Source: Sphaerotilus mobilis (GTDB lineage: Bacteria; Pseudomonadota; Gammaproteobacteria; Burkholderiales; Burkholderiaceae_C). Taken from it: a stretch of DNA of 64,000 nucleotides. The notes under the pieces were generated by a model. The model was not told the origin of the DNA, did no database searches, and was given only the letters and a program-made list of their open reading frames with translations. The stretch spans positions 544,588 through 608,587 of the forward strand of contig NZ_SGWV01000010.1 of the NCBI RefSeq assembly GCF_004216565.1. The letters run 5' to 3'. Made by a program: the position numbers and the translations under genes. The stretch's first letter is position 1. Every line of letters starts with the position of its first letter. This document shows, piece after piece, positions 48,088-63,557 of the stretch.

Positions 48088-49218
48088 ATGCCTGCACTGC
48101 GCCCCGATGTCGATCCCGATGGCCTGCTCGAATATTCGGTCGTCTACACCGACCGGGCGCTCAACCACATGTCGGCCCGCTTCCAGAAGGTGCTGACCGA
48201 CATCACCGCGACGCTCAAGGAGGTCTATGCGGCCCGCGCTGTCGCCATCGTGCCGGGCAGCGGCACCTTCGGGATGGAAGCGGTCGCGCGCCAGTTCGCC
48301 ACCGGCCAGCATGTGCTGGTGATCCGCAACGGCTGGTTCAGCTACCGCTGGACCCAGATCCTGGACATGGGCGCGATCCCGAAGTCGTCGACGGTGCTGA
48401 AGGCCCGCCGCACCGGTGACGGCGGCCCGAAGGCGCCGTTCGCGCCGGCCCCGATCGATGAGGTGGTCGCGCGCATCGCGGCCGAACGTCCGGCGGTCGT
48501 GTTCGCGCCGCACGTCGAGACCTCCGCCGGGATGATCCTGCCCGACGACTACCTGCGCGCCGTGGCCGACGCCACGCATGCGGTTGGCGGCCTGTTCGTG
48601 CTGGACTGCATCGCCTCGGGCACGGTCTGGGTCGACATGGCGGCCACGGGCGTCGACGTGCTGGTCAGCGCGCCACAAAAGGGCTGGAGCGGCCCGCCGT
48701 GCTGCGGTCTGGTGATGCTCAGCGAGCGCGCCCGCGCCGCCATCGAGACGACCACCAGCACCAGCTTCGCCTGCGACCTGCGCAAGTGGCTGGCCATCGC
48801 CGAGACCTATGAAGGCGGCGGCATCGCCTACCACGCCACCATGCCGACCGACGCGCTGGCGACGCTGCGCGACGTCATGGTCGAGACCCGCGCGATCGGC
48901 TTCGCGCAGCTCAAGGACGCGCAGATCGAGCTGGGCCGCCAGGCCCGCGCGCTGCTGGCGTCCAAGGGCTTCCCGAGCGTCGCCGCCGATGGTTACGGCG
49001 CGCCCGGCGTGATCGTCAGCTACACCGACGACGCGCAGATCCAGAGCGGTGCCAAGCTCAAGGCCCAGGGCCTGCAGATCGCCGCCGGCGTGCCGCTGCA
49101 GTGCGACGAAGGCACCGACTTCCGCACCTTCCGCATCGGCCTGTTCGGCCTGGACAAGCTGGGCAACGTGGCCCGCACCGTCGAGCATCTGGACCGGGCG
49201 CTGAGCCACATCGTCTGA
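48088..49218 (+). CDS. Class V PLP-dependent aminotransferase (alanine-glyoxylate/serine-pyruvate type)
   Basis: 376 residues. Fold-type I class V features: VPGSGTFGMEAVARQF near residue 56, the cofactor-binding Asp in LFVLDCIASG near 172 and the PLP lysine about 198 (SAPQKGWSGP). FRTFRIGLFGLDKLGN near the end carries the carboxylate-binding Arg. Relatives transaminate serine, alanine or ureidoglycine with glyoxylate or pyruvate. No neighbours specify the substrate. Confidence 0.9.
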   Translation: MPALRPDVDPDGLLEYSVVYTDRALNHMSARFQKVLTDITATLKEVYAARAVAIVPGSGTFGMEAVARQFATGQHVLVIRNGWFSYRWTQILDMGAIPKSSTVLKARRTGDGGPKAPFAPAPIDEVVARIAAERPAVVFAPHVETSAGMILPDDYLRAVADATHAVGGLFVLDCIASGTVWVDMAATGVDVLVSAPQKGWSGPPCCGLVMLSERARAAIETTTSTSFACDLRKWLAIAETYEGGGIAYHATMPTDALATLRDVMVETRAIGFAQLKDAQIELGRQARALLASKGFPSVAADGYGAPGVIVSYTDDAQIQSGAKLKAQGLQIAAGVPLQCDEGTDFRTFRIGLFGLDKLGNVARTVEHLDRALSHIV

Positions 49219-49262: not shown

Positions 49263-49293
49263 CCATACCCAAGCGGTGTGACAGACTGGCCAG
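49263..49293 (+). promoter_or_regulatory. Duplicated upstream element, crp1 copy
   Basis: The 31 bases before the crp1 ATG (CCATACCC ... GACTGGCCAG) match 51119-51146 upstream of crp2, apart from a 3-bp gap and a few substitutions. CATACY may be a -10 element. TGTGA at 49277-49281 is a Crp half-site. Confidence 0.6.
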
Positions 49294-50019
49294 ATGCCCG
49301 AACCCGACGCCCCCGCACTGAGCGGCCTGCGCGCCGTCCACCTGCTCAAGGACCTGCCCGAGCCGGTGCTCGCCGAGGTCGCCGCCGCCTGCCGTTTCCG
49401 CCTCTACCGCGCCCGCCAGGGCGTGATCTCGCGCGACGACCTCGACCGCGACTGCTACTTCATCGTCTCCGGCCGGGTCCGTGTGGTGGCCTTGTCGCCG
49501 AGCGGTCGCGAGGTCAGCTTCCGCGACTCGGGCGCCGGCGAAACCATCGGCGAGATGGCTGCGATCGACGGTGCGCCGCGTTCGGCCACCGTCGTCGCGC
49601 TGCAGGACACCCTGCTGGCGCGCCTGAGCCCAGATGACCTGCGCCGGCTGCTGCAACGCCATTGGGTCATCACCGAGCGCATGCTCGGCCACCTCGCCAG
49701 CATTGCCCGCCGGCTGACCGACCGGGTCTACGAACTCAGCACGCTCAATGTGCAGCAGCGCCTGTGTGCCGAGCTGCTGCGGCTGGCGCTGGCCGATGCG
49801 GCGGTGCACGACCGCAGCGCCGACAACCGCATCGTGCTGCGCCCGGCGCCCAGTCACAGCGAGCTGGCCGGACGCATCAGCAGCTACCGCGAGCAGGTCA
49901 CGCGCGAGCTGGCCGAGCTGGGTCGCGCCGGCCTGGTCGGGCGCGAGGACGGCGCGCTGGTGATCGAGGACCTGTCGCGTCTGGCCGAGCGCATTGAAGC
50001 GGTGCGCACCTCGACCTGA
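49294..50019 (+). CDS. Crp/Fnr-family regulator, copy 1
   Basis: 241 residues. A cNMP-binding barrel (about 25-125) with the phosphate-binding cassette intact, IGEMAAIDGAPRSATVV, keeping the Glu and Arg-Ser that hold the cyclic phosphate in CRP. A long dimer helix and a Crp-type HTH follow (SELAGRISSYREQVTRELAELGRAGLV, about 190-216). There are no Fnr-type cysteines. It is the first gene of a duplicated crp-btad pair and shares more than half its residues with the gene at 51164. cAMP is the likely ligand, given the adenylate cyclase at 58531. Confidence 0.93.
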   Translation: MPEPDAPALSGLRAVHLLKDLPEPVLAEVAAACRFRLYRARQGVISRDDLDRDCYFIVSGRVRVVALSPSGREVSFRDSGAGETIGEMAAIDGAPRSATVVALQDTLLARLSPDDLRRLLQRHWVITERMLGHLASIARRLTDRVYELSTLNVQQRLCAELLRLALADAAVHDRSADNRIVLRPAPSHSELAGRISSYREQVTRELAELGRAGLVGREDGALVIEDLSRLAERIEAVRTST

Positions 50020-50059
50020 GCCTCGACCGCGTCCCCGGCGCCGAAACAATTTGCAGCAT

Positions 50060-50089
50060 GTGGGCGGTGCGCCAGCGCACTGCGCCCAC
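50060..50089. repeat. 30-bp near-perfect palindrome between crp1 and btad1
   Basis: GTGGGCG-GTGCGC pairs with GCGCAC-(TG)-CGCCCAC around a CA centre; only the TG dinucleotide is unpaired. It is either an operator or the crp1 terminator (no T tract). It lies just ahead of the conserved element at 50097. Confidence 0.7.
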
Positions 50090-50096
50090 GGGGGGT

Positions 50097-50110
50097 GACT
50101 TCCTAGACTG
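50097..50110 (+). promoter_or_regulatory. Conserved element upstream of btad1
   Basis: GACTTCCTAGACTG recurs with one base deleted at 51977-51989 upstream of btad2, 70 bp before this start and 54 bp before that one. The surroundings do not align, so the element itself seems selected; TAGACT could be a -10 box. Confidence 0.55.
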
Positions 50111-50179
50111 GCTCATCGACGTCGCGCCGCACGGACCGCCCGTGCGGGACCGGCGTCGACGCTCTTGGGAGTCAACACG

Positions 50180-51097
50180 ATGGAACTCGATGTCTTGAGC
50201 CGACCGGCCGCCATGGCCGGTCCAACCCTGGTGCTGCCCTTCGATCGCCCGATCGCACCCGCACCGCTGCCGGTGTCGAGCCGCCCGGCGGCGCTTGCCG
50301 AACCGATGCTGACGGTGCACATGCTCGACGGCCTGCAGCTGAGCCTGGGCGGGCAGCGCATCCAGGACCTGCCGCATGGCAAGGCGCGCGCGCTGCTGCG
50401 CGTGCTGCTGCTGCAGCGTCGCCGGCCGATGTCACGGCTGCGCCTGTGCAGCCTGTTGTGGCCGGAGGCCGATCCGGCCGGCGCGCGCAACAGCCTGCAC
50501 GTCACCTTGCACCGGCTGCGCCGCGCGATCGGCGACAGCGGCCTGATCCGCCACGGCGACGAGGGCTACCAGCTCGTCGCGCCGGGCGAGGTCTGGCTCG
50601 ATGCCGAGCAGTTCGTGCTGCACGCCGAGGTCGGCGCGCTGGAGGACCTGCGCGGCAACCTGGATGAAGCGATCACCGAGTACGAATCGGCCATCGCGCT
50701 CTACCGCAGCGACCTGCTCGACGACGGCGAACACGAACCCGCGCTGGCCTGCGACGACCAGGCCCTGCGTGACCGCTTCAACCAGGCGCTGGAACGGCTG
50801 GCCCGGCTGCGCGAATCGCGCGAGGACCTGCACGGCTGCCTGCGCGTGTCACTGCGTCACCTGGGCATCGACCCGTGCAACGAACAGGCCCACCGCCGCC
50901 TGATGCGCTGCTACGCGCGGCTCGGTCAGGTCCAGCTGGCCGAACGCCAGTTCCGCACCTGTGTCGACACGCTGCGCCGCCAGCTCGGCGTGACGCCGCA
51001 GGCGGAGACGATCGAGTTGCATCGGCGCCTTCTTGTTGACAGGCACCAGCCATCGGCCAGCTGGTTCGCCAGCCGCTCCGCTCCTTCAGGCGGATGA
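50180..51097 (+). CDS. BTAD-domain (SARP-like) transcriptional regulator, copy 1
   Basis: 305 residues from an ATG with GGGAG upstream. An OmpR-like winged helix (about 43-125: LSLGGQRIQDLPHGKARALLRVLLL, SRLRLCSLLWPEADPAGARNSLHVTLHRLRRA) is followed by a bacterial transcriptional activator domain of TPR-like helices (about 135-285, ending CVDTLRRQLGVTPQAETIELHRRLL). This is the DNA-binding plus BTAD core of SARP regulators, without an NB-ARC ATPase. It is paralogous to the gene at 52043. The likely targets are the importer and enzyme genes downstream. Confidence 0.9.
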   Translation: MELDVLSRPAAMAGPTLVLPFDRPIAPAPLPVSSRPAALAEPMLTVHMLDGLQLSLGGQRIQDLPHGKARALLRVLLLQRRRPMSRLRLCSLLWPEADPAGARNSLHVTLHRLRRAIGDSGLIRHGDEGYQLVAPGEVWLDAEQFVLHAEVGALEDLRGNLDEAITEYESAIALYRSDLLDDGEHEPALACDDQALRDRFNQALERLARLRESREDLHGCLRVSLRHLGIDPCNEQAHRRLMRCYARLGQVQLAERQFRTCVDTLRRQLGVTPQAETIELHRRLLVDRHQPSASWFASRSAPSGG

Positions 51098-51118
51098 TGC
51101 AGTAACCCAACCGAGATC

Positions 51119-51146
51119 CCATACTCCGTGTGTCCGGACTGCCCGG
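51119..51146 (+). promoter_or_regulatory. Duplicated upstream element, crp2 copy
   Basis: CCATACTCC ... GACTGCCCGG aligns with 49263-49293. The ATG that follows, equivalent to the crp1 start, opens a frame of only a few codons; translation has moved to a GTG 17 bp further on. Confidence 0.6.
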
Positions 51147-51163
51147 ATGCAAGGAGCAAGACC

Positions 51164-51949
51164 GTGACACTGCTTCGCTCGACCGACGCACGTGCGCTGA
51201 GCGGCCTGCGTCAGGTGCACCTGCTGCGCGATCTTCCCGACGAAATCGTCTCGGAAGTCGGACAGATCTGCCAGTTCAAGCTGTTTCGTTCCCGTCAGAT
51301 CGTGATGTCGCGGGACGAAAGAGATCGGGACTGCTACTTGATCCTGTCCGGCAAGGTGCGGGTGGTCGCGCTGTCGCCCAGCGGCAAAGAAGTCAGCTTC
51401 CGCGACGCTGGTCCTGGCGAACTGATCGGCGAGATGTCAGCGATCGACCGGCTGCCACGCTCGGCCACGGTCGTGGCCGTCCAGGATGCCCTGTTGGCGC
51501 GGATGAGCCCAGATGACCTCCTGGCGCTGCTCAGGCGCCATTGGGATGTCAACGAACGCATGCTGAGGCATCTGGCTGGCGCTGCGCGCGGTCTGACCGA
51601 GCGGGTCTACGAGTTGAGCGCCCTGAACGTGTCCCAGCGTTTGTGCGCCGAACTGCTCCGACTGAGCCACGCCAGCGCGGCATCGCCAAAAGCGCAACGG
51701 TGCCTGCTGGATCCCACGCCCAGCCACAGCGAACTGGCAGGCCGCATCAGCTGTACGCGAGAGCAGGTCACACGAGAGCTTGGTGACTTGCGCCGCGCCC
51801 GGGTGATCGAGTGCTCGACGCGGGGACGGGTCGTGGTCGACCTCTTGCGGCTGGCCGATCGCGTGGATGTGCCCACCAGCTCGCCGACGGCCCCGTGCGA
51901 AGCGACCAAGCGCTCGGTTGCCCCCAGAACTTCCGTCGAAAGCATGTGA
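51164..51949 (+). CDS. Crp/Fnr-family regulator, copy 2
   Basis: 261 residues. The GTG at 51164 is chosen because AAGGAG lies 7 nt upstream; an in-frame GTG at 51128 has no such site and would add residues lacking similarity. The cassette IGEMSAIDRLPRSATVV and the HTH SELAGRISCTREQVTRELGDLRRARVI match copy 1 closely. The C-terminal about 25 residues are extra. It is 66 bp downstream of btad1, the second unit of the duplication. Confidence 0.92.
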   Translation: MTLLRSTDARALSGLRQVHLLRDLPDEIVSEVGQICQFKLFRSRQIVMSRDERDRDCYLILSGKVRVVALSPSGKEVSFRDAGPGELIGEMSAIDRLPRSATVVAVQDALLARMSPDDLLALLRRHWDVNERMLRHLAGAARGLTERVYELSALNVSQRLCAELLRLSHASAASPKAQRCLLDPTPSHSELAGRISCTREQVTRELGDLRRARVIECSTRGRVVVDLLRLADRVDVPTSSPTAPCEATKRSVAPRTSVESM

Positions 51950-51976
51950 GCGAGATCACCGGCGAGGTTGCCTGCC

Positions 51977-51989
51977 GACTTCTAGACTG
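51977..51989 (+). promoter_or_regulatory. Conserved element upstream of btad2
   Basis: GACTTCTAGACTG, the partner of 50097-50110. Confidence 0.55.
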
Positions 51990-52042
51990 AGTCGCGATTT
52001 CTCCGATTTCTCAATCACGGCGACCCTCAGCCCGGAGGCAGC

Positions 52043-52990
52043 ATGCTGAACGACGAACACACGACATCCCGGAACACAGCCATGGCGAGCGTCAACCGCG
52101 CCAGCGCTGCGCCGGCCGACATCCTGCTCGACATGCCAGCGTGCCTGCGCACCAGCCTACCCAGGTCGAACGGCCCGTTGTTGTCGATGAAGGTCATCGG
52201 CGGTTTCGAACTGTGGCTGGACGACATGCGTGTGGAGAACCTGCCGCGCGGCAAGACCCGTTCACTGCTCAAGCTGCTGCTGTTGCGGCGGCATGGTCCC
52301 CTGTCACGGACGCGGCTTTGCAACCTCTACTGGCCTGAAGCCGACGCTGGAAGCGCCCGCAACAGCTTGCACGTGACGCTGCACCGTGTGCGCCGGGCGC
52401 TCGATCCGGCGGGGGTGATCGTGCATCAGGATGAGGGCTACCAGTTCCTGCCGAACGGGCCGGTGTGGATCGACAGCGAACAGTTCCTGCAGCGCTCCGA
52501 CATGGGCGCGCTTCTGGATGCCCGTGGCAAGCATGTCGAGGCGATCGCCCACTACGAGGCGTCTTTGGTGCTGCACGGTCTGGACCAGATCGACGAAGAC
52601 AGCCAGGACGCGGCACTGTCAGGTCTGGCGCAACAGCTGCGCGACCGCCACAACCAGGTTCTGCAGCGACTGGCCGAGCTGCATGAAGCTGCAGGCGATC
52701 TCCATGCCTGCTTGCGGACGGCGTTGCGCCACCTGAGCCTGGATGCCTGCAACGAGGCCGCCCATGGTCGCTTGATGCGCTGCTATGCAGCGTTGGGACA
52801 ACCCCAGCTCGCCGAGCGCCAGTACCGCACCTGCGTGCGGGTTCTGCGAGAGACGCTCGGCGTCGCACCGCAAGAGGTCACGACGCGCCTGTACCGCTTG
52901 CTGACCTCGCGGGAGGTTTCGGCGGCAGATATCCATGCGAACGGCGCAACGGCCCGACCGGCTTGGCACGCGCTGCATCCCTCGCCGTAG
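52043..52990 (+). CDS. BTAD-domain (SARP-like) transcriptional regulator, copy 2
   Basis: 315 residues with the same layout as copy 1: winged helix (LPRGKTRSLLKLLLLRRHG, RNSLHVTLHRVRRAL) and BTAD (LMRCYAALGQPQLAERQYRTCV, RETLGVAPQEVTTRLYRLL). Conservation with copy 1 is strongest in these blocks, while the first 45 residues differ. It is the last regulator before the importer genes, 90 bp upstream of the binding protein, and the best candidate for their activator. Confidence 0.9.
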   Translation: MLNDEHTTSRNTAMASVNRASAAPADILLDMPACLRTSLPRSNGPLLSMKVIGGFELWLDDMRVENLPRGKTRSLLKLLLLRRHGPLSRTRLCNLYWPEADAGSARNSLHVTLHRVRRALDPAGVIVHQDEGYQFLPNGPVWIDSEQFLQRSDMGALLDARGKHVEAIAHYEASLVLHGLDQIDEDSQDAALSGLAQQLRDRHNQVLQRLAELHEAAGDLHACLRTALRHLSLDACNEAAHGRLMRCYAALGQPQLAERQYRTCVRVLRETLGVAPQEVTTRLYRLLTSREVSAADIHANGATARPAWHALHPSP

Positions 52991-53080
52991 GCGGAGAACG
53001 GCCCGTTCCCTGGTGTACAGGCTCGGGGCTGTCGAACAGAATCAAGAAGCCGATCTACCTGAACCATGCAAGGATCCACG

Positions 53081-54862
53081 ATGAGAGAAGCGGACATCAG
53101 GGCAGCGATCCAAGCGGTTCGATCTGGCGCCTTGTCACGGCGCGCCTTCATCGCGCGCTTGACGGCAGTCGGGCTGCCGGGGCCCATGGCGGCGGCCTTG
53201 CTGCCGATGTCCGACGCTGCCGGCGCGCAAACCGGCAAGCCCTTCTACGAACCGGTTCGGCGCGGCGGGGGCGGGGCGCTCCGGATGTTGTTCTGGCAAG
53301 GACCGACGCTCCTGAATCCTCACTTCGCCAGTGGCAGCAAGGACCAGGCGGCCTGCAGGCTGTTCTACGAGCCGCTGGTCGACTGGGACAGGGACGGCAA
53401 CCTCTACCCCATGCTGGCTCAGGAGGTGCCCTCGCTCGCGAACGGGGGGCTCGCTCGGGACGGGCGTTCCGTGACCTGGAAACTCAAGCCCGACGTCACC
53501 TGGCACGACGGCAAGCCCTTCACGGCCGACGATGTCGTCGCGACATGGGAGTACGCACGAGACCCGGCCACCGCCGCCATCACGCACGGGTCATTCCGCT
53601 CGATCCAGGTCCGCAAGGTCGATGCCCTGACCGTGCGCCACGAATTTGATCGCCCGACGCCCTTCTGGGTTGACGCCGCCTTGCATTGCGTGCTGCCGCG
53701 ACACCTCTTCGCAGCCTTCCGAGGAGCGACGTCGCGCGATGCCCCCGCCAACTCGCGACCGGTCGGGACGGGCCCCTACCGTTTCGTCGACATGGTTCCG
53801 GGCGACCTGGTTCGAGGCGAGCTCAACCCGACGTACCACCAACCGCTCAAGCCGCATTTCGACACGGTCACGATCAAGGGCGGCGGCGATGCCCTGTCCG
53901 CGGCCCGCGCGGTGCTGCAGACCGGCGAGTACGACTTCGCCTGGAATCTCCAGATCGAGGATGAGATCCTGCGACGGCTGGAAGAAGGCGGCCGCGGCAC
54001 GTTGGACTTCGCGCATGGGGGCCATGTCGAGTTCCTGATGCTCAACCACGCGGACCCCTGGAGCGAGGTCGATGGCGAGCGGGCTTCTCCGGCCAGTCGC
54101 CACCCGGTGCTGCTGGACCCGGCGGTGCGAGAAGCGCTGGCTTTGCTGGTCGATCGCGACAGCATCCAGCGATTCCTGTATGGACGAGGAGGCGTCGGCA
54201 CCGCCAACTTCCTGGTCAATCCGGCGCGCTACACCTCCACGCGCAAAGGGCTCGGACACGATCCGGCACGGGCCGAGGCACTGCTGGAAGCCGCGGGCTG
54301 GAAACGCGGGCCGGACGGGGTGCGTCAGCGTGATGGGAAGCGGCTGAAATTCTTGTTCCAGACCTCCGTCAACGCGACCCGCCAGAAGGTTCAGGGCCTT
54401 TTGCGACAGGCCGCACAGCGGGTTGGAATCGAACTGGAACTGAAGTCGACGACGGCCTCGGTGTTCTTCTCCTCCGATCCCGGCAGCCAAGACACAGCGA
54501 CCAAGTTCCTGGCCGATCTCCAGATGTACCAGCAGGGCCGCAACGGGCCAGATCCGGGGCGATTCATGGAGATGTTCTGTTCCTGGCAGATCGCATCGCG
54601 AGAGAACAAGTGGGAGGGTCGCAACGTGATCCGTTGGCGACATGAGCGCTATGACCGCACCTTCCGCGCGGCTGAGGTCGAGGTCGATCCTGTGCGGCGC
54701 GCCGCGCTGCTCATCGAGCTCAACGACCTGGTCTGCGAGGACGGCGCGATCGTTCCCATCGTCTACCGACCGGCCATCTCCGCACTGACCCGCCGGCTGC
54801 GTGCGCCCATCAGCGGATGGACCGTCGAGACGGCCCAGATCGCCGACTGGTTCAAGGCTTGA
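53081..54862 (+). CDS. Peptide-type ABC transporter substrate-binding protein (SBP family 5)
   Basis: 593 residues, long for the DppA/OppA family (about 530). The N-terminus SRRAFIARLTAVGL followed by a weakly hydrophobic stretch is a Tat-type signal. The body has the SBP_bac_5 signature (VTWKLKPDVTWHDGKPFTADDVVATWEYARDP) and RPVGTGPYRF. AAGGAT precedes the chosen ATG, an in-frame ATG 15 bp earlier being less likely. Ligands of the family include di- and oligopeptides, nickel, opines and glycosides; the ligand here is unknown. Confidence 0.92.
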   Translation: MREADIRAAIQAVRSGALSRRAFIARLTAVGLPGPMAAALLPMSDAAGAQTGKPFYEPVRRGGGGALRMLFWQGPTLLNPHFASGSKDQAACRLFYEPLVDWDRDGNLYPMLAQEVPSLANGGLARDGRSVTWKLKPDVTWHDGKPFTADDVVATWEYARDPATAAITHGSFRSIQVRKVDALTVRHEFDRPTPFWVDAALHCVLPRHLFAAFRGATSRDAPANSRPVGTGPYRFVDMVPGDLVRGELNPTYHQPLKPHFDTVTIKGGGDALSAARAVLQTGEYDFAWNLQIEDEILRRLEEGGRGTLDFAHGGHVEFLMLNHADPWSEVDGERASPASRHPVLLDPAVREALALLVDRDSIQRFLYGRGGVGTANFLVNPARYTSTRKGLGHDPARAEALLEAAGWKRGPDGVRQRDGKRLKFLFQTSVNATRQKVQGLLRQAAQRVGIELELKSTTASVFFSSDPGSQDTATKFLADLQMYQQGRNGPDPGRFMEMFCSWQIASRENKWEGRNVIRWRHERYDRTFRAAEVEVDPVRRAALLIELNDLVCEDGAIVPIVYRPAISALTRRLRAPISGWTVETAQIADWFKA

Positions 54863-54866
54863 GCCC

Positions 54867-55835
54867 ATGCACCGGCGCGCCCACTCCGTCGGATGGCGTG
54901 CGCTGCGGGCCTTGCTGAGCGTGCTCGGCATCAGCGCGGTGTTGTTCGCGGTGCTGAAGATGGCTCCTGGCGACCCTATGAGCGAGCTCGTGACGCACCC
55001 CGACGTACCGCCAGAGGTCCGTCGACAACTGCGACACCAGTTCGGTCTGGACCAGCCGCCCATCGCGCGCTATTTCCACTGGCTGTGGGCCATGCTGCGC
55101 GGCGACTGGGGCTGGTCCCACGTCAGTCGGTTCGACGTGATCGACCTGATCCTCCAGCGTCTGCCCGTCACCTTGGCAATCGTCGGTGGCTCGTTGCTGC
55201 TGGCGCTGGCGCTGGCCGTGCCGATCGGGATGAAGGCCGGGCTGCATCCCGGGAGCGCCTTCGACCGCTGTGTGTCGGCCCTGGCCTATCTGGGCTATGC
55301 CCTGCCGTCGTTCTTCACGGGTCTGCTGCTCATCCTGTTGTTCTCGATTCAACTCGGCTGGCTGCCGTTCGTTTTTCGCACCGATCTGTCGCAGACCGGC
55401 TGGCCCTGGATGGTGGAGCAGGCTCGACAGTCGCTGATGCCCGTGCTGGTCCTGGCGTCCTTCCAGTCCGCGATCTGGTTGCGTCATGTGCGTTCGGCGG
55501 TGATGGATGTCGCTTGCCTCGACCACGTCCGGCTGGCTCGCAGCAAGGGCCTGCCAGAGACCCTCGTGGTCTGGCGGCATGTGCTGCCCAACGCCCTGAT
55601 TCCGCTGGTGACCCTGCTGGCCTTGCAACTGCCGGCGGTGTTCAGCGGCGCGATCGTGACCGAACAGATTTTCCGGGTGCCGGGCATCGGCTCGCTGCTG
55701 GTCGAGTCGGTCCTGAGAAATGACACGCCCGTGCTGCTGGCCATCACCCTTCTTCTCGCTGTGCTGGTGGTCATGGCCAACGCGCTGGCAGATGTGACCT
55801 ATGGTTGGCTCGACCCCCGCATTGGCACGCGCTAG
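54867..55835 (+). CDS. ABC transporter permease, DppB-like
   Basis: 322 residues, six predicted helices. Family phrases: MAPGDPMSELVTHPDVPPEVRRQLRHQFGLDQP in the first periplasmic loop, a YLGYALPSFFTGLLLILLFS helix and the EAA-type loop DHVRLARSKGLPETLVVWRHVLPNALIPL that contacts the ATPase. It starts 4 bp after the binding-protein stop. Confidence 0.94.
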   Translation: MHRRAHSVGWRALRALLSVLGISAVLFAVLKMAPGDPMSELVTHPDVPPEVRRQLRHQFGLDQPPIARYFHWLWAMLRGDWGWSHVSRFDVIDLILQRLPVTLAIVGGSLLLALALAVPIGMKAGLHPGSAFDRCVSALAYLGYALPSFFTGLLLILLFSIQLGWLPFVFRTDLSQTGWPWMVEQARQSLMPVLVLASFQSAIWLRHVRSAVMDVACLDHVRLARSKGLPETLVVWRHVLPNALIPLVTLLALQLPAVFSGAIVTEQIFRVPGIGSLLVESVLRNDTPVLLAITLLLAVLVVMANALADVTYGWLDPRIGTR

Positions 55836-56688
55836 GCCGGCGGGCATCGCCGGTCTGGTCTCGCTGGTGCTGCTTGCAGTCGTCGGCCCGTGGCTGTGGA
55901 CGCCGACGGTCGACGAGATCGATTTCTCGTCCCGGCTGTTGCCTCCCGGTGCGCAGCACCCACTGGGCACCGACGAGATGGGCCGTGACCTGTTGGCGAG
56001 GCTGTTGCACGGTGGTCGCATCAGCCTCGCGATCGGTGCTGCTGCCATGCTGTTGTCGGCCCTGGTCGGCACAGCCGTTGGTGCTGTGGCGGGGCTGTCC
56101 AGACGCGGTCGCAGCGACGCCGTCCTGATGGCCGCCACCGACCTGTTCCTGTGCCTGCCCCAGTTGCCCGTGCTGCTGCTGCTCGTTCACCTGTTCCGAG
56201 ACCCCTTGCAGGCCCGTCTGGGTTCAGGACCGGGCCTCTTCGTGCTGATCGTGGCCGTGATCGGCGGCTTCCGCTGGATGACCGTCGCGCGGCTGGTCAG
56301 GGCGCAGTTCGTGACGGTACGCCAGCGGGAGTTCATCGACGCGGCGCGGGCCCTGGGCGCGTCGCGTCGCTGGCTGGCGTGGCATCACCTGCTGCCACAT
56401 GCGAGGGGTCCGGTGGTGGTCATGTGCTCGCTCGACGCGGCGGCGGCGATCCTCACGGAGTCGACCCTCTCCTTTCTCGGCCTGGGCTTTCCGCCCGAAA
56501 CGCCGACCTGGGGCCGCATGCTGCATGACGGCAAGGACTACCTGGACATCGCACCATGGGTGGCCGTCGCGCCCGGACTGGCGATTGCGTTGACCGTGCT
56601 GGCGCTGCATCTGGCAGGCGATGCCTGGCGGGACGCCAAGGACCCGCACGCCCGCCTGTCGCATCGCAAAAGGACCTCAACGACATGA
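55801..56688 (+). CDS. ABC transporter permease, DppC-like
   Basis: 295 residues. HPLGTDEMGRDLLARLLHGGRISLAIG is the hallmark of DppC/OppC permeases; the EAA loop is REFIDAARALGASRRWLAWHHLLPH, and TLSFLGLGFPPETPTWGRML is conserved. Its start lies inside the end of the preceding permease gene (35-bp overlap), and its stop overlaps the next ATG. Confidence 0.94.
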   Translation: MVGSTPALARARPAGIAGLVSLVLLAVVGPWLWTPTVDEIDFSSRLLPPGAQHPLGTDEMGRDLLARLLHGGRISLAIGAAAMLLSALVGTAVGAVAGLSRRGRSDAVLMAATDLFLCLPQLPVLLLLVHLFRDPLQARLGSGPGLFVLIVAVIGGFRWMTVARLVRAQFVTVRQREFIDAARALGASRRWLAWHHLLPHARGPVVVMCSLDAAAAILTESTLSFLGLGFPPETPTWGRMLHDGKDYLDIAPWVAVAPGLAIALTVLALHLAGDAWRDAKDPHARLSHRKRTSTT

Positions 56689-57689
56689 GCGTCCGAGATC
56701 TGACGGCGGGTGGTCTGTCCGTGCGCGGCTTGTCAGTCCACTTCGAGACCCCGGAGGGCACGGTCGAGGCACTCGACCACGTCAGTCTGGACATCGAGCC
56801 GGGGAAAACGTTGGGCCTGGTCGGGGAGTCCGGCAGCGGCAAGTCCGCGCTCGCCAGTGCCATCGTCGGGATGGTCGCAGGGCCAGCCGGACGGGTGGTG
56901 AGCGGCGAAGTCTTCTGGCAGGGTCGTGACCTGCTCAAGCTGGGGCCCAAGGACCTGCGCACGGTTCGTGGGCGCGAGATCGCCTGGATCCTTCAGGATC
57001 CGGCCACCGCGCTGAACCCCGTTCGGCGCATCGGCGATCAGGTCGGAGAAGCCGCGCGCTGGCACCTGCAACTGTCGAGGTCGCAGACGCGTGCCCGGGC
57101 CCTGTCATGGCTGGCGCGCGTTCACTTGTCCGATCCAGAGAGACTGGCCGATGCTTACCCCCATCAGCTCTCTGGCGGCATGCGCCAGCGAGCCCTGATC
57201 GCAGCGGCCCTGGCCTGTGGACCGCAACTGCTGATTGCCGATGAGCCCACGTCGACGCTGGACGTCAGCGTGCAAGCGGGAATTCTCGAACTGCTGCGCG
57301 ACATGCGTCGAGACCTCGGACTTTCGATGCTGCTGATCACGCATGCCCTGCCGGTCGTCGCGCAGATGTCCGACCGCATCGTCGTCCTGTATGCCGGACG
57401 GGTGGCTGAAGAGGCCGACACGCAGCGGCTGTTCTTCGGTGCCCGCCATCCGTACACGCGCGCCATGATCGAGGCCGTGCCACGCCCTGAGCCCGGGCGG
57501 GCACGTCAGGTTCAGATGACGGGCATTGCTGGCCAGGCGCCGTCGCTGATCGGGCCTGCCGGGGGTTGCCGGTACGCTGACCGCTGCGCATCGGTCCATG
57601 CACGCTGCCACGCCGAGGCACCGCCACTGCGTGAAGTCGGTCCGTCTCACCGGGTGGCTTGCTGGGCCGTTGAGGGCGACGTCCGATGA
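56685..57689 (+). CDS. ABC transporter ATP-binding protein, DppD-like
   Basis: 334 residues. Walker A GESGSGKSAL (near residue 47), signature LSGGMRQRALIA and Walker B LLIADEPTSTLD are intact. The C-terminal oligopeptide-transporter extension has the Cys-containing CRYADRCASVHARCHAEAP segment. ATGA overlaps join it to the permease upstream and the second ATPase downstream. Confidence 0.95.
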   Translation: MSVRDLTAGGLSVRGLSVHFETPEGTVEALDHVSLDIEPGKTLGLVGESGSGKSALASAIVGMVAGPAGRVVSGEVFWQGRDLLKLGPKDLRTVRGREIAWILQDPATALNPVRRIGDQVGEAARWHLQLSRSQTRARALSWLARVHLSDPERLADAYPHQLSGGMRQRALIAAALACGPQLLIADEPTSTLDVSVQAGILELLRDMRRDLGLSMLLITHALPVVAQMSDRIVVLYAGRVAEEADTQRLFFGARHPYTRAMIEAVPRPEPGRARQVQMTGIAGQAPSLIGPAGGCRYADRCASVHARCHAEAPPLREVGPSHRVACWAVEGDVR

Positions 57690-58534
57690 ACCCTCCTCTG
57701 CTGGCCGTGCGCGAGTTGGTCAAGGTCTACCCGACCGTTCGGTCAACCTGGTGGGGGGGACCAGCCCAAGGCGTGCGGGCGCTGGACGGCGTGAGCTTGG
57801 AGCTGTCCGCCGGCCGGACGCTGGGCGTGGTGGGAGAGTCCGGATGCGGCAAGAGCACGCTGGCACGCTGCATCCTGAACCTGATCGAACCCAGCTCGGG
57901 GGAAGTTCGGATCGACGGAAGACCGGTCGATCGCCGGCGCCGAACCGATCGGCTGGCGTGGGCCCGTGCCGTCCAGATCATCTTCCAGGATCCGCAGACC
58001 TCGCTCGATCCGTTGATGACCGTTGCCGACATCGTCGGCGAGGGCCTCGTTCTTCATGGCTTGGTGCGGGGACGCGCCGAACGGGATGCGCAGGTGGTGG
58101 AGCTGCTCGCACAGGTCGGCCTCGGGACCGAACACCTGCGGCGGCATCCGCACGCGTTCTCGGGAGGACAGCGCCAGCGCATCGCCATCGCGCGGGCGCT
58201 GGCCGTCCGGCCACGCCTGCTCGTTTGCGACGAGGCGGTTTCGGCGCTGGATGTCTCGGTGCAGGCTCAGGTGCTGAACCTGCTGGTCGACCTGCAGCGA
58301 CGACAAGGCCTGGGCATGGTGTTCATCAGCCATGACCTGGCGGCCGTCGCACAGGTGAGCGACCACGTGGCCGTCATGCAGGCCGGCCGCGTGGTCGAGT
58401 GCCGGACAACGGCCGATCTGCTCGAACAGCCTGGGCATCCCTGCACGCGGGCACTGCTTGCCGCCCTGCCGTGCATGCCAGGCGAAACCGGCCAGCGGGC
58501 GCTTGCGACGGCGCCGAACTGTCCATCAGAATGA
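57686..58534 (+). CDS. ABC transporter ATP-binding protein, DppF-like
   Basis: 282 residues. Walker A GESGCGKSTLARC, signature FSGGQRQRIAIARAL, Walker B LLVCDEAVSALDVS. The C-terminal extension is short compared with typical DppF. Its stop overlaps the cyclase ATG (ATGA), so the cyclase is translated from the importer message. Confidence 0.95.
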   Translation: MNPPLLAVRELVKVYPTVRSTWWGGPAQGVRALDGVSLELSAGRTLGVVGESGCGKSTLARCILNLIEPSSGEVRIDGRPVDRRRRTDRLAWARAVQIIFQDPQTSLDPLMTVADIVGEGLVLHGLVRGRAERDAQVVELLAQVGLGTEHLRRHPHAFSGGQRQRIAIARALAVRPRLLVCDEAVSALDVSVQAQVLNLLVDLQRRQGLGMVFISHDLAAVAQVSDHVAVMQAGRVVECRTTADLLEQPGHPCTRALLAALPCMPGETGQRALATAPNCPSE

Positions 58535-60447
58535 GGATGCCTGAACCCAAGCAAGAGCACACCATGGCACCCGAGGAAGCGGCGCAACCGGAAGTGGGGA
58601 AGCATCCATGGCCCGAGTTGGTGCGGGTGCGCCGAACCGTGGTGGTGGTCGACGTGGTCGAGTCGGTCCGGCTGCTGAGGGAGCATGAAAACGACGTGAT
58701 CCAGCGCTGGCGGCAGTTTGTCCAGCAGGTACGTAGCGACGTGCTCCCCGTCAGGAACGGACGCATGGTCAAGAGTCTGGGCGATGGCATGCTTCTCGAA
58801 TTCCGGTCCGTGCCTCAGGCGGTGGATGCCGCCTTCGAGCTGCACAGGCTCGCCTCTGCATTCAACCAGGGCCGTCCGCAGGACGCCTCCATCGTCCTTC
58901 GAGCAGGGGTGCACGAAACCGACCTGGTCGTCGAGGAATATGACGTTTTCGGGTCTGGCGTCAACTTGGCTGCCCGGCTGTGTTCAGTCGCCCAGCCTGG
59001 AGAGACCATCCTGTCGCCGCAGGCCCGACAGGCACTCGTTCCCGACATCGATGCAGACATCGAGGATCTCGGTGATGCCGACTTGCCCATGCCGGACACC
59101 ACCGCGCGCCCGGTGCGGCTGGACCTCGAGATCGAGGACCTCGGCCTCGTGAACCTCAAGCATTTTTCCGAGCGACAAAGGGCCTTCCGTGCAGGCCCGA
59201 TCGGTGAACGTATGCCGATGTGGGCCTCACAAGGCGCCGGGCATGACGAGCGCATCGGCATCGCGGTCATCCCGTTCGAGGACCCGCTGGCGACCGAGCG
59301 TATCCAGAGCGTGCTCGGAGAGGTGCTGGCCGATGACCTGATCGCCCAGTTCGCACGGCTGCCCCAGCTCAACGTGATCTCGCGACTGTCGACGACGCGC
59401 CTGCGTGACCGGTCCTTCGACGCGCAGGTGCTGCACGAGGTGCTGGGGTGCAACTACGCGGTGACGGGAACGCTGACGCTCGTCGGCGAACGTTTCCGGC
59501 TGCGGGTGCAACTGGTGAACTGCCCGCTCGGCGAGGTCATCTGGGCCGAGGGGCTCGACGGCCGTGTCGCCGAAGCGCTCGACGGCAGCAGCCCGGTCGT
59601 CGAGCGGCTCGGCGAGCAGATCGGCGCGGCCATGGTCGGGGCCGAGGTGCGCAGGGCGGTCAGGCTTCCGCTGCCGACGCTGGACAGCTACACCATCTTG
59701 CTGGGCGCGATCTCGCAAATGCATCTGCTGTCCCCGCGCGAGTTTGGACGGGCTCGCGAGATGCTGAGCTACCTGTGCGATCGACACCCCCGTTCGCCGG
59801 CACCGCGCGCCTGGCTGGCGAAATGGCATGTGCTGCGCGTCGCGCAGGGTTGGTCCGAACGCGAGGACGACGACCACCAGATGGCGCGTCTCGCGGTCTC
59901 GCAAGCCCTCGATCTGGACGGCGGCTTCAGCCTCGCACTGGCGATCGACGGGCTGGTGCACGCCTATCTGGGCAAGGACCTGGAACAGGCCTCGGACCGG
60001 TATTCGCAGGCGATCCAGATCAATCCGAACGAAGGCCTGGCGTGGCTGTTCCAGTCCGCCTTGCATGCCTATGCAAACGATGGGCAGGACGCGGTCCGAT
60101 GCGCGCTGCAGGCGCAACGCCTGTCACCGCTCGATCCGATGCGCTACTACTACGACAACTTCACCTCGATGGCGCTGCTGTCCCACGGTGACTACGACAC
60201 CGCGATCTCCTACGGCAAGCGCTCGCTGCGTGCCAACCGCACCCACGGATCGACGCTGCGCATCCTGGCGATCGCGCAGTCGCTGGGTGGCCATGCCGAC
60301 GAGGCGCACCAGACCGTCCAGGATCTGCTGCGGGTCGAGCGCGGCTTCAGCGTGTCCCAGTACCTGCGGCGATACCCCGGCGCCGACAGGCCACATGCCG
60401 TCCGCTATGCGCAGGCCCTGCGCGAGGCCGGTCTGCCGGAGAACTGA
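58531..60447 (+). CDS. Class III adenylate cyclase with TolB-like and TPR regions
   Basis: 638 residues, no membrane segment. The cyclase domain (about 35-175) has both metal Asp residues (Asp41 in VDVVES, Asp85 in LGDG), the purine-selecting pair Lys81 and Asp138, which favours ATP over GTP, and the transition-state pair Asn145 and Arg149 (NLAAR). A TolB-like domain (about 245-365, IGIAVIPFEDPLATERIQ, VTGTLTLVGERFRLRVQLV) and TPR-like helices to the end follow. The ATGA overlap with the ATPase gene ties it to the importer. Expected product: cytoplasmic cAMP, available to the two local Crp proteins. Confidence 0.92.
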   Translation: MRMPEPKQEHTMAPEEAAQPEVGKHPWPELVRVRRTVVVVDVVESVRLLREHENDVIQRWRQFVQQVRSDVLPVRNGRMVKSLGDGMLLEFRSVPQAVDAAFELHRLASAFNQGRPQDASIVLRAGVHETDLVVEEYDVFGSGVNLAARLCSVAQPGETILSPQARQALVPDIDADIEDLGDADLPMPDTTARPVRLDLEIEDLGLVNLKHFSERQRAFRAGPIGERMPMWASQGAGHDERIGIAVIPFEDPLATERIQSVLGEVLADDLIAQFARLPQLNVISRLSTTRLRDRSFDAQVLHEVLGCNYAVTGTLTLVGERFRLRVQLVNCPLGEVIWAEGLDGRVAEALDGSSPVVERLGEQIGAAMVGAEVRRAVRLPLPTLDSYTILLGAISQMHLLSPREFGRAREMLSYLCDRHPRSPAPRAWLAKWHVLRVAQGWSEREDDDHQMARLAVSQALDLDGGFSLALAIDGLVHAYLGKDLEQASDRYSQAIQINPNEGLAWLFQSALHAYANDGQDAVRCALQAQRLSPLDPMRYYYDNFTSMALLSHGDYDTAISYGKRSLRANRTHGSTLRILAIAQSLGGHADEAHQTVQDLLRVERGFSVSQYLRRYPGADRPHAVRYAQALREAGLPEN

Positions 60448-60486
60448 CGGGGGTCCTGTCCCAGCCCATCCACAGGGAGTGAACCC

Positions 60487-61641
60487 ATGAGCATCCTGTC
60501 CGCGTCGTCGGCATCGTCCGCGTCTTCGGCGTCCTCGGCCTCGTCTGCCTCGTCAGCGTCTTCCGCATCGTCGGCATCCTCGGCATCGATGAACGGCGTC
60601 GCCGGCTATGCCGGCGCGATCGTCAACCCCGCGCTGACGCAGGCCCTGGAGTCGTCGCAGCATGCGCTGTGGCGTCTCGGTGTCACCGGGGCTGCAATGG
60701 TCCCGACCCCGAGCAAGGGCGAGGGGGATCGGCTCCGGCAGTGGCAGCCTGACGTCCGAGGCGCGATCTGGGGCTTCGAGGTCGCGCAGGACCTGGTCTT
60801 CAGAGCGGAGTCGCAGGATTCCGCAACCCTGGGCCTCTGGGTCCCCAACCCGGCCGGCGTCAAGGCAACATTCAAGGCCCTGTTGACCTTGACTGCGCCA
60901 TCGGATGCGACCTTGATGGCCCAGGCCCAAGCGGTCGCGGAAAAGACCCGGTTTCGCTCGATGCCGAAGTCCCAGGATCCCTCGCGCGAGCGCCTGCTGG
61001 AGATCACCACCCAGACCACACCGGCCTTTGCTTTCTGGTCTCAGATCCTGCCGCTGCACCCCGACCGGACGCCACGCACCCTCGAATTGATGCAGGTCGC
61101 GCTCGGTCTGGCCAACCATGCCGTGCAGCGCCTGAAGCACGCGCTGGATGTGAGGCGGCCCCATCGCATCAACCACCAGGTGATGCCGGCGATCCTGACG
61201 CCTGCCCATGGCAGCCTGCCCAGCGGCCACGCCACTGAAGCGTTCACGATCGCCTGGGTGCTGTCGCAATTGGTGGACGGGGACCGCAGAGCGCTCCTTC
61301 CCTTGACCCGAACACAACTGGCCCTGGCGTACCGCATCGCCGAGAACCGCGAGTACGCCGGCGTGCACTACGAGATCGACTCGATCGCGGGGCAGGTGCT
61401 GGGCACCGTGATGGCGGACTATCTGATCGCCCGTTGCACGGCAGACGAGAACGCAACCGTTGATGTCGAGGCACGCGCATTCAATCCAGAAGTCAAGCGC
61501 AAGCAGAAAGGGGTGGACGCAGCGGCCGATGTGGTCGATTTGGTCGTGAGCCGGATCCCGGCCCCACGTGGGGCGGTCCCCGTCGGCCGTTCCGAGCCGC
61601 TGGCCTGGCTCTGGACGCAAGCGTCTGCGGAGTGGCACTGA
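60487..61641 (+). CDS. PAP2 / vanadium-dependent haloperoxidase-fold enzyme
   Basis: 384 residues. The acid phosphatase/haloperoxidase signature is complete: K217-x6-R224-P (KHALDVRRP), P245-S-G-H248 and R288-x5-H294-x3-D298 (REYAGVHYEID). The surrounding helical region and the length fit soluble vanadium-haloperoxidase-like proteins better than membrane PAP2 lipid phosphatases; no transmembrane helices are seen. The N-terminus is a run of nine Ala-Ser-Ser units. GGGAG precedes the ATG at 60487; a second Met after the repeat could also serve. Whether it is a haloperoxidase or a phosphatase cannot be told. Confidence 0.85.
   Translation: MSILSASSASSASSASSASSASSASSASSASSASMNGVAGYAGAIVNPALTQALESSQHALWRLGVTGAAMVPTPSKGEGDRLRQWQPDVRGAIWGFEVAQDLVFRAESQDSATLGLWVPNPAGVKATFKALLTLTAPSDATLMAQAQAVAEKTRFRSMPKSQDPSRERLLEITTQTTPAFAFWSQILPLHPDRTPRTLELMQVALGLANHAVQRLKHALDVRRPHRINHQVMPAILTPAHGSLPSGHATEAFTIAWVLSQLVDGDRRALLPLTRTQLALAYRIAENREYAGVHYEIDSIAGQVLGTVMADYLIARCTADENATVDVEARAFNPEVKRKQKGVDAAADVVDLVVSRIPAPRGAVPVGRSEPLAWLWTQASAEWH
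60502..60588 (+). repeat. Ala-Ser-Ser coding repeat (nine 9-bp units plus a partial)
   Basis: Each unit encodes Ala-Ser-Ser, but Ser is written tcg, tcc, tct or tca and Ala gcg, gca or gcc, so neighbouring units differ at the DNA level. That points to selection on the protein sequence or an old expansion rather than recent slippage. Confidence 0.9.
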
Positions 61642-63557
61642 TGTCCGCCCCGGATCCCTACCTGCAATGGGCCAAGCTCACCCAGCTTCGCTACCTGCAA
61701 CCGATGCGCGACGCGCAGGACGGTGACTGGCTGCGTCTGATCACCACCCCTGAGGGGGTCGCTGCCCTTCAGGAAAGGGCGCAGCACCAGGTGTTGTCGC
61801 TCGTCGATCCGGCCGCTCGACACCGGACGGTCTGGCTGCACGCCGATGACCTGCCGGTCGCGCTGGACTGCTCGAACCACCACCGCATCGGTCTGGCGCA
61901 CCCCGGAATGGCGCCCGTGGGGGGTCGAAAGTCCGTCGGGTTGGTGGACATGGCGCCTCTTCCAGAAAAACCAGGCGCGGAGGAGGTGCAGCCCTGCGAG
62001 GCTGCGACGGTGATCGGCGTCATCGATGGTCGTTGCGGCTTCCTGCACCAGGACTTCTGGACCGACGAGGGGCGCACCTTCATCCGGCATTTCTGGGACC
62101 AGGGTGTCCCGGCCACGGCAGATCCGGCCTTTTGGCGCACACCGGACGACATGCAATACGGCCGACAGGTCACCGGTGCGCGCCTTGAAGAACGCTTCGG
62201 TGCGTCGCTCGCCGCGTGCGCGACCGGCTGGCAGCGCGAGCAGCGCGAACTGGCGAGCTATCGGGCCATCGGCTATGCCTTGCCCGAGGCGGCGGACTGG
62301 AGTCACGGCACCCATGTGCTGTCGACAGCCCTGAAGGCTTACCGCGACCTCGATGCCAGAGGCAACACGTCGCCACCGGTGGGGCCAGCGCTGATCCATG
62401 TCCAACTGCCGGACCTTGCCCTGCACGACACCAGCGCGAACTGGCTGGCCTCGCATGTGCGCGACGGGATCGACTACATCCTGGCTCGCTGTTCGCCCGA
62501 GGCACGGGTGGTCATCAACCTCAGCCTGGGCGGATTTGGCGGGCCGCAGAACGGCACGTCGATGCTTGAGGAGGCCATCGACGAGCGCATCCGCCGCTGG
62601 AACGGGCCTGACGGCATCCAGCGGCTGCAGGTCGTCGTGGCCGCCGGCAACATCGGCACAGGCGACGTGGACGATGACGGCTCCGGGGAGCCGCGCCGGG
62701 TCCATCTGCGCAAGGGCTGTAAAGAGGACGGCAGCATCGAGTTCTCATGGGACATCGAGGTTCCCGACGCCACTGAAACCTTCCTCGAGTTCTGGGTACC
62801 AGCGACAGGAGACTCACCGGTCCGGATGACGGCGACCCTGATTCCGCCGCCCGGCGCTGTCGCACTGCAAGCCACTGCCGGGCCGGGCGAGCATGCCACC
62901 TGCGACTGGCAGGACGCACCCGGTGTCCAGGCGGCGGTCTTCAATGGCACCCACACATCCGAGGGCGCCTGCGGTACCGGTTCCAGCCTGATTCTGGTCG
63001 CCTTGCCGCACACGACCGACTGGCTCGGTCGTCGATGTGGCCCTCTGGGCCGCTGGTCGCTCAAGCTGTCGCCGCAGGACCGTGCGCGCGAGCCGCTCCA
63101 TGTCGACGGCTGGATCCGTCGGCGCGACGTGCCGGGCGAACTGGCCGGCGAACGACCTCAGTACGGTTTCAGCAAGGCGGACGCGCCATCTGGGCAGCTC
63201 GCCGATCAACGGTCCACCCTGGCCCATGCCCACCAGGTGGTGGTGGTGGGCGCCGTCGAACCGGCGCGCATGCCCAGGGCAATCTACCCGTTCGAGGAGG
63301 CCGACTATTCCTCGACCATCCTGGGCGGCGACCCGGTCTACGGCCCAGGTCGGCTCCACGGGCCCGGCTTCACGACCGGGACACGCCAGCAACTGCGGGG
63401 AACGTCGATCGCTGCGGCCCATGTCTGCGGAGCCCTCGCTGCCCAGGCAACGCCATCGCCGCTCAACCTGGAAAATCTGCCGCCTGGCCCAGCACTGCCG
63501 GGTGCAAGGGCCGAACCGTCAAAGAAGGTCAGGCGGGTCCGGGCCATCTTGCCCTGA
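61641..63557 (+). CDS. S8 (subtilisin) family serine protease
   Basis: 638 residues. Catalytic triad Asp129 (GVIDGRCG), His222 (SHGTHV) and Ser589 (GTSIAAAH), with oxyanion Asn337 (AAGN). About 250 residues separate Asn337 and Ser589, including a beta-rich insertion (about 345-470, SIEFSWDIEVPDATETFLEFW). There is no signal peptide or obvious prodomain, so it may act in the cytoplasm or leave by a non-Sec route. The ATG overlaps the PAP2 stop (TGATG). Substrate unknown; it could supply peptides to, or be regulated with, the upstream importer. Confidence 0.9.
   Translation: MSAPDPYLQWAKLTQLRYLQPMRDAQDGDWLRLITTPEGVAALQERAQHQVLSLVDPAARHRTVWLHADDLPVALDCSNHHRIGLAHPGMAPVGGRKSVGLVDMAPLPEKPGAEEVQPCEAATVIGVIDGRCGFLHQDFWTDEGRTFIRHFWDQGVPATADPAFWRTPDDMQYGRQVTGARLEERFGASLAACATGWQREQRELASYRAIGYALPEAADWSHGTHVLSTALKAYRDLDARGNTSPPVGPALIHVQLPDLALHDTSANWLASHVRDGIDYILARCSPEARVVINLSLGGFGGPQNGTSMLEEAIDERIRRWNGPDGIQRLQVVVAAGNIGTGDVDDDGSGEPRRVHLRKGCKEDGSIEFSWDIEVPDATETFLEFWVPATGDSPVRMTATLIPPPGAVALQATAGPGEHATCDWQDAPGVQAAVFNGTHTSEGACGTGSSLILVALPHTTDWLGRRCGPLGRWSLKLSPQDRAREPLHVDGWIRRRDVPGELAGERPQYGFSKADAPSGQLADQRSTLAHAHQVVVVGAVEPARMPRAIYPFEEADYSSTILGGDPVYGPGRLHGPGFTTGTRQQLRGTSIAAAHVCGALAAQATPSPLNLENLPPGPALPGARAEPSKKVRRVRAILP

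Follow-up and report, generated by a model that had tools for sequence, protein, structure and literature searches.

The Csp germination proteases (CspB, CspA and CspC) are subtilases of family S8 that remove a propeptide from the N-terminus of their substrate. Class A acid phosphatases and vanadium haloperoxidases, class III adenylate cyclases with tetratricopeptide repeat (TPR) C-termini, and Pycsar and other defence systems held in PADLOC, where a cyclase is coded beside an effector-like enzyme, are likewise known. Here we describe a locus in a 64,000-nucleotide stretch of the Sphaerotilus mobilis genome (the window; contig 4 of a genome of 4.65 Mb) that resembles each of these in part. Three adjacent genes code for a cyclase-TolB-TPR protein (gene 1), a soluble enzyme of the PAP2 fold that carries an array of one repeated peptide at its N-terminus (gene 2), and a Csp-like subtilase (gene 3).

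The cassette subtilase shares with the Csp proteases the S8 fold, an inserted beta domain and a propeptide-like N-domain, and they are its top matches in both sequence and fold; it differs in being proteobacterial and in its neighbours, a PAP2 enzyme and a cyclase, and identity in the fold alignments is only 15-17%. A SleC-type substrate was not noticed in the loci that were read, although no search was aimed at one. The PAP2 enzyme shares its phosphate/vanadate-site residues with class A acid phosphatases and vanadium haloperoxidases, its Foldseek matches being the acid phosphatases 7f17/7f18, then PhoN/PhoC and, more weakly, 4usz. Unlike these relatives, it carries an N-terminal array outside the matched region and, as with gene 3, has no signal peptide apparent by eye; the cassette is probably cytoplasmic. 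Gene 1 shares its catalytic residues with the TPR cyclases, the nearest solved cyclases being 3mr7 and Ma1120, but in contrast to them it has lost the cyclase half in 12 of 84 loci, some of which have DNA-binding domains.

For the defence systems the likeness is one of arrangement. PADLOC gave no match for the three proteins of the window, and the pairing of a PycC cyclase with a Pyc effector that marks Pycsar was not found; in one other locus (L099) gene 1 weakly matches PycC and the S8 protein weakly matches IetS. Peptidases and cyclic nucleotide monophosphate (cNMP)-cyclase modules have been described as exchangeable parts of conflict systems (eLife 2020, PMC7159879), and the words PAP2, haloperoxidase and tripeptide are absent from the main text of that article. 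No description of the cassette, its peptide array or the exchange of its protease was found in the open-licence literature, and subscription papers or preprints may contain one. The component families are already known.

A conserved three-gene cassette

All three genes of the window lie on the plus strand. Gene 1 (58531..60447, with possible starts at 58531, 58537 or 58564) contains a class III cyclase and TPR by Pfam and a TolB-like region by eye, and retains the catalytic residues D, K, D, D, N and R (the two metal Asp, the substrate Lys/Asp, Asn and Arg). Gene 2 (60487..61641; Pfam PAP2) has the PAP2/acid-phosphatase fold, and its vanadate/phosphate-site residues K217, R224, S246, G247, H248, R288 and H294 are present; in 44 PAP2 sequences six of these are invariant and S246 is nearly so. 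From these residues the enzyme is proposed to be a phosphatase or a vanadate-type oxidase. Gene 3 (61641..63557; Pfam S8) has D129, H222, N337 and S589, of which the first three are invariant and S589 nearly invariant in 40 S8 sequences. The initial annotation of the window, made from the sequence alone, had called the catalytic residues intact, which is borne out for the cyclase, the PAP2 enzyme and the subtilase.

Relatives were collected by scanning contigs with a PAP2 alignment, which found 345, of which the best 80 were kept in a sample that leans towards the window's relatives; an earlier scan with a single protein instead of the alignment found none. The patterns by which the 80 loci were found lay in the PAP2 core and not in the array, the profiles used to call neighbouring genes were built from the first five cassettes, and four plasmid loci (L177, L178, L184 and L186) bring the set to 84. 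The cyclase, PAP2 and S8 genes follow one another in the same order and on one strand in 73 of the 80 loci, mostly in Alpha- and Betaproteobacteria, and they constitute a conserved three-gene cassette. Three of the seven exceptions are near a contig end (L085, L093 and L113), one has no gene 1 that could be found (L109), and in the other three gene 1 is divergent (L123, L132 and L135). The initial annotation had placed these genes in a single module together with Crp/BTAD regulators and a peptide importer. Across genomes the linkage of the triad is conserved, whereas the importer and the Crp-BTAD genes also occur apart from it: among the 80 loci a BTAD match was found in one, permease matches in 6-7, and a match to the importer's binding protein in two (Leptothrix and L123, a Rhizobium metagenome-assembled genome (MAG)).

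The PAP2 enzyme is present at E<=1e-20 in 59 of 399 genomes of the window's family (the window included), and beyond the family its distribution is patchy, with 21 of 398 genomes in a phylum sample. These large searches scored few candidates per genome, namely five for PAP2 in the phylum, three for the importer in the phylum and four in the family. The cassette is also found on plasmids of the marine bacteria P. inhibens, P. piscinae and P. gallaeciensis (L177 and L179-L183), where gene 1 is annotated as winged-helix; the six Phaeobacter plasmids fetched all belong to rep_cluster_636, four of them conjugative and two non-mobilizable. No match to PAP2 was found in the phage collection or in PHROGs, the latter giving two weak matches (E ~1e-4) for gene 1 and S8. 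The sole non-proteobacterial name among the 80 loci is an Anaerolineae MAG (IP29b_bin.19, L112) from the same sample as a cassette-bearing Paracoccaceae MAG, and its cassette may be a binning error.

A peptide array at the N-terminus of the PAP2 enzyme

The N-terminus of gene 2 in the window carries ten perfect copies of the tripeptide SSA (60499..60588, plus strand), coded by scrambled synonymous codons, a feature that the initial annotation overlooked. At least three perfect copies of a unit are found in 78 of the 80 PAP2 proteins and at least five in 76, L085 and L113 being cut by contig ends. The unit itself differs from locus to locus, and includes GGA, EGV, NSF, RAQ and TGN among others. 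By a stricter test, based on the longest run, in 84 proteins (the 80 loci, three early relatives and the window), the period was three residues in 72, four in one and six in one, and in the remaining ten a longer run came from interrupted arrays or from truncated or misread N-termini. Among 1093 neighbouring open reading frames, by comparison, none had an N-terminal array of five copies and one had such an array elsewhere in the protein.

Similar arrays are present in the other samples. Among 30 loci of the family sample, for which the profile included array columns and hence was not array-blind, the period was three in 17, four in eight and six in four, with one locus cut at the contig start. 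The class and phylum samples were searched with a repeat-free profile, and there the array is present in all 24 loci (three from the class and 21 from the phylum, the window included), with a period of three in 20, four in one and two in three. In a distant PAP2 protein (L211:6929-7897) the array is (SM)n and lies some 60 residues into the chain; a gene with a BTAD domain is found at a distance of about 4 kb. The array is predicted to be disordered, as the structural model of the window enzyme has an overall predicted local distance difference test score (pLDDT) of 83 and a score below 50 for residues 1-44, which hold the array.

The copies within an array are nearly identical at the peptide level. 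Only 14 of 770 units are off-type, and between neighbouring units there are 1500 synonymous and 72 nonsynonymous base changes, which corresponds to a ratio of nonsynonymous to synonymous differences (pN/pS) of 0.022. The count was seeded with arrays of three or more perfect copies and then extended, and so favours regular arrays. The low ratio indicates that the copies are kept alike as peptides. Between loci, in contrast, 83 PAP2 cores carry 30 different units, and at least 36 unit changes are required on the tree as against 51.8 when the units are shuffled; the unit is therefore inherited, yet often changes. For instance, GGI and GGV are found in pairs of Microvirga whose cores are 82-88% identical (64-65% with L095), other one-residue changes separate GGF from GGL at 78% and GGW from GGV at 69% core identity, and two loci (L102 and L145) have mixed arrays. 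Copy number also varies, the six Phaeobacter plasmid copies having 5, 6, 6, 6, 7 and 7 NSF units. Protein repeats usually either keep their sequence or drift because nothing is kept, whereas here the copies are near-identical within a gene and the peptide differs between lineages. Such strong purifying selection within genes, combined with a peptide that differs by lineage, poses the testable question of what reads the sameness.

Exchange of the output domain and of the protease

Gene 1 retains intact cyclase residues in 69 of the 84 loci (allowing K>R/N at the substrate position and N>S at another), has lost them in the 12 mentioned above, and is missing in three. A Pfam scan covered eight of the 12 proteins, and found a Trans_reg_C winged helix in L096 and L177, a BTAD domain with a sub-cut-off Trans_reg_C match in L141, and a sub-cut-off Trans_reg_C match in L123. 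In addition, the RefSeq annotation of gene 1 in L178 is winged helix, and gene 1 of L184 is SARP-like by eye. Among distant loci, gene 1 of L211 has a BTAD match just above the cut-off and that of L212 a sub-cut-off Trans_reg_C match, while TPR only was found in L216 and L218. Gene 1 is therefore a TPR protein whose output half can be exchanged.

Regulators of the Crp type, which could read a cyclic nucleotide, often lie beside cassettes that have a cyclase. In 19 of the 84 loci a strong Crp/Fnr match lies no more than 2 kb from the cassette (425 kb examined), as opposed to one strong match farther out (690 kb), which is the own Crp of L. discophora beyond its importer, and one weak match in L143; the Crp profile had been rebuilt with matches from the same loci before this near/far count. 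Twelve Burkholderiaceae loci have a weaker cNMP-regulator match nearby, and the one that was scanned with Pfam (L082:1442-2647, just upstream of the cassette) codes for a regulator with a LuxR-type GerE and a C-terminal cNMP_binding domain, the 11 others having a similar weak match. A neighbour of any such kind is present in 29 of the 69 loci with an intact cyclase and in 1 of the 12 that have lost it (Fisher p 0.03, kinship ignored). The Crp proteins of the window have a cNMP pocket motif with R-S/T-A (IGEMAAIDGAPRSA and IGEMSAIDRLPRSA), a motif that as written missed the proteins of G008, G009, L111 and L184, and their best matches in the set, beyond each other and those of L. discophora, are the cassette-side Crps of L184 and L186 (36-41%). 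It is plausible that the local Crp proteins read cyclic AMP (cAMP). A second, weaker cyclase-TPR match (L101:14780-16525) was noted downstream of one cassette, adjoining a Crp-type gene.

The protease is the second part that changes. In the window, the model of the subtilase (pLDDT 80) has CspB, CspA and CspC chains as its top 11 Foldseek matches (best E 2.6e-20), in agreement with the sequence profile, and includes the beta insert (a jelly-roll) as well as a beta-alpha-beta-beta-alpha-beta unit at residues 30-85, which we take to resemble subtilase propeptides. However, two distant loci that belong to different families (L213 and L214) have as their third gene one that overlaps PAP2 and codes for a Peptidase_A4 (E 1.4e-27 and 3.3e-23) instead. 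Among the eight other distant loci that were read, Peptidase_S8 proteins are found in L215 (upstream and divergent), L216 and L217, the S8 profile matches in L218, L219 and L220 (on the strand opposite to PAP2 in the first two), and in L212 the next gene has no Pfam match and S8-like D/H/N/S motifs by eye. The protease slot is thus exchangeable, being filled by S8 or by an unrelated A4/G1 peptidase. With both output domain and protease swapped, these loci amount to natural experiments on the wiring of the cassette.

What might read the array

We tentatively favour a reading, to which we would give substantial weight although less than half, in which a sensor controls the PAP2 effector of the cassette and the protease gates this effector by way of the array. 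Gene 1 would sense through its TolB-like/TPR half and report through the exchangeable output domain by one of two routes: a class III cyclase would make cAMP for Crp-type regulators nearby to read, or DNA would be bound directly by a winged-helix or SARP domain. The PAP2 enzyme would be restrained, or positioned, by its disordered N-terminal array, and gene 3 would be a protease zymogen that acts on the array, thereby releasing or activating PAP2. The shared peptide would drift between lineages and copy number would shift by whole units; on this proposal every copy must fit the same site, and selection would therefore keep the copies alike. The array is regarded as a protease-facing pro-segment or tether because it persists while the protease family changes, because the S8 protease is a relative of the Csp proteases, and because Csp proteases act on N-terminal propeptides. 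As such, the array may represent a novel type of tag for recognition or activation.

A number of points weigh against protease gating. Cutting of the array by the protease is something we infer and not a direct observation, and the sameness of the copies would be explained equally well by homotypic assembly or by binding to the TPR. The partner proteins show no enrichment of four-residue pieces of the unit found in their own locus (13 seen and 12.7 expected in S8, 1 seen and 2.9 expected in gene 1), and L211 has an array with no protease in view nearby. On the output side, four of the eight scanned gene 1 proteins with a lost cyclase (L130, L132, L135 and L184) have TPR only and no DNA-binding Pfam match, and the alignment shows a degenerate cyclase domain in G033. 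The association with Crp is phylogenetically clumped, 40 of the 69 intact-cyclase loci have no Crp-type neighbour of any kind, and the PAP2 enzyme is rare outside the window's family (3 of 369 genomes of the class). Finally, a reading of the array as the strict substrate of a tripeptidyl peptidase is weakened, since periods of four, six and two residues occur; the fold match is to Csp proteases.

Possible, if doubtful, is that the array is a lineage-specific molecular password, hypervariable and evolving in concert, which would be read by a cognate protease of an interchangeable family (S8 or A4/G1) and combined with sensor output via cAMP or DNA. Here selection would act on the sameness of the copies and not on a given sequence.

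A role of the array in homotypic assembly seems unlikely to us, but has points in its favour. Identical copies would pack within or between PAP2 molecules, as a filament or condensate, such that any uniform sequence works, and the protease would disassemble the structure or act otherwise. Uniformity without a fixed sequence would be accounted for, as would the many G, A, S and T residues, and the array is predicted to be disordered in a single-chain model. However, units such as RAQ, DAR, TSD, NAE and NK have no obvious packing chemistry in common, and the recurrent protease partner is left unexplained.

TPR domains commonly bind short peptides, raising the less likely prospect that the array is a multivalent ligand of the TPR of gene 1, tethering PAP2 to the sensor, with the unit co-evolving with the TPR groove and the protease acting elsewhere. 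The persistence of the TolB-TPR half of gene 1 where the cyclase is lost would fit such a role. Against it, gene 1 shows no unit signature, and its number of nonsynonymous substitutions per site (dN) is the second-lowest of ten in-locus pairs between the window and L. discophora, although this last point is weak because both have the same unit, SSA.

The proposal of the initial annotation, that an imported ligand or the state of the importer sets cAMP, that the local Crps read it, and that the BTAD proteins drive importer, protease and PAP2 as one module, is in our view improbable. The importer, of the Dpp/Opp/Nik type, comprises an SBP_bac_5 solute-binding protein (53066..54862, start 53066 or 53081), permeases B (54867..55835) and C (55801..56688), both BPD_transp_1, ATPase D (56685..57689; ABC_tran and oligo_HPY), which has an ATGA overlap with permease C, and ATPase F (57686..58534; ABC_tran), all on the plus strand and assigned by Pfam. 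The order of the genes and their overlaps, in the window as in L. discophora, are consistent with one module, and so is the recurrence of Crp proteins beside the triad. Among the relatives searched, however, the importer is at this place in these two only, and its binding protein is found at E <= 1e-80 in three of 60 relatives (the window, L. discophora and G023). Of the 398 genomes in the phylum sample, 15 have a close homologue of the binding protein (E <= 1e-130); every genome besides the window's that has both a close homologue and PAP2 (G829, G925, G1042, G1062 and G1109) has them on separate contigs or more than 1.5 Mb apart. The importer was thus rejected as a core part of the cassette, and an imported ligand as the trigger is not supported; L123 counts against the rejection, as this MAG has a full and similar importer (49-61% identical) about 2.5 kb beyond its S8 gene. 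Crp-BTAD genes are likewise found without the triad, and the counts of one and two among 80 loci for BTAD and binding protein were given above. Least probable by far is that the array is nothing more than DNA prone to slippage, whether neutral or phase-variable, and has no role at the protein level: copy number does differ by whole 9-base units between Phaeobacter strains, but the many synonymous differences within arrays, with the peptide kept, disfavour simple slippage, and the observed changes are in frame and would therefore not switch the gene off.

The locus in the window

By Pfam, the window has a run of twelve plus-strand genes, comprising two Crp/BTAD pairs, the five-gene SBP_bac_5 importer, and the cyclase-TPR, PAP2 and subtilase genes. 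The run had been described earlier with these domains and on this strand but as eleven genes; the tight junctions reported for it are confirmed, with gaps of at most about 40 bases or ATGA/TGATG overlaps from 53066/53081 onward. A simple scan of the locus for sigma-70 promoters and terminators gave nothing above chance. The first pair consists of CrpA (49294..50019; cNMP_binding and HTH_Crp_2, pocket motif IGEMAAIDGAPRSA), whose best match is in the pair of G009, and BtadA (50165..51097; Trans_reg_C and BTAD, with synteny in relatives), a SARP-type regulator. The second consists of CrpB (51128..51949; cNMP_binding and HTH_Crp), a second Crp/Fnr regulator with its best match in the pair of L. 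discophora, and BtadB (52043..52990; Trans_reg_C and BTAD, also assigned from identities), a second SARP-type regulator. A recent tandem duplication of the pair is not favoured, because pair A is nearest to that of G009 and pair B to that of L. discophora.

Synteny was followed by mapping the window proteins onto 16 stretches fetched from relatives. In L. discophora CCM 2812 (G002), which is of the same genus as the window, the whole set is present with a single Crp-BTAD pair and with PAP2 at 53961-55025. In other relatives the parts occur separately: cyclase-PAP2-S8 is found in G001, G033 and G021 with no Crp or BTAD match in the stretch, and Crp-BTAD adjoins purB in G001 and G008 and the aminotransferase in G009, as BTAD adjoins purB in G004, in each case with no importer or triad in the stretch. 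G004 has a weak 28% match to the cyclase domain next to BTAD, and G004 and G008 have a 26-27% match to the binding protein some kb off. The locus of the window is therefore a composite and not one conserved module. In this genus the Crp-BTAD pairs have long adjoined the aminotransferase or purB, and they are not confined to the cassette, and in the window the cassette has been joined to a peptide importer and placed behind this older locus.

The divergence between the window and L. discophora is uneven along the sequence. The ten pairs that were compared within the locus have a synonymous divergence of 0.54-0.93, as against 0.21 for the flanking aminotransferase and 0.12 for the partial purB, the contrast spanning 48088-49218, 51128-63557 and 63645-63998; such a pattern would fit an exchange of the block as an island. 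The dN/dS ratio is below 1 for all pairs. The S8 protease has the highest dN of 12 pairs (0.37), followed by BtadB (0.29), the PAP2 core (0.27) and CrpB (0.24), with PAP2 above the importer genes (0.09 for the binding protein) and the cyclase (0.13). Thus, it is the effector pair and the regulators that evolve fastest.

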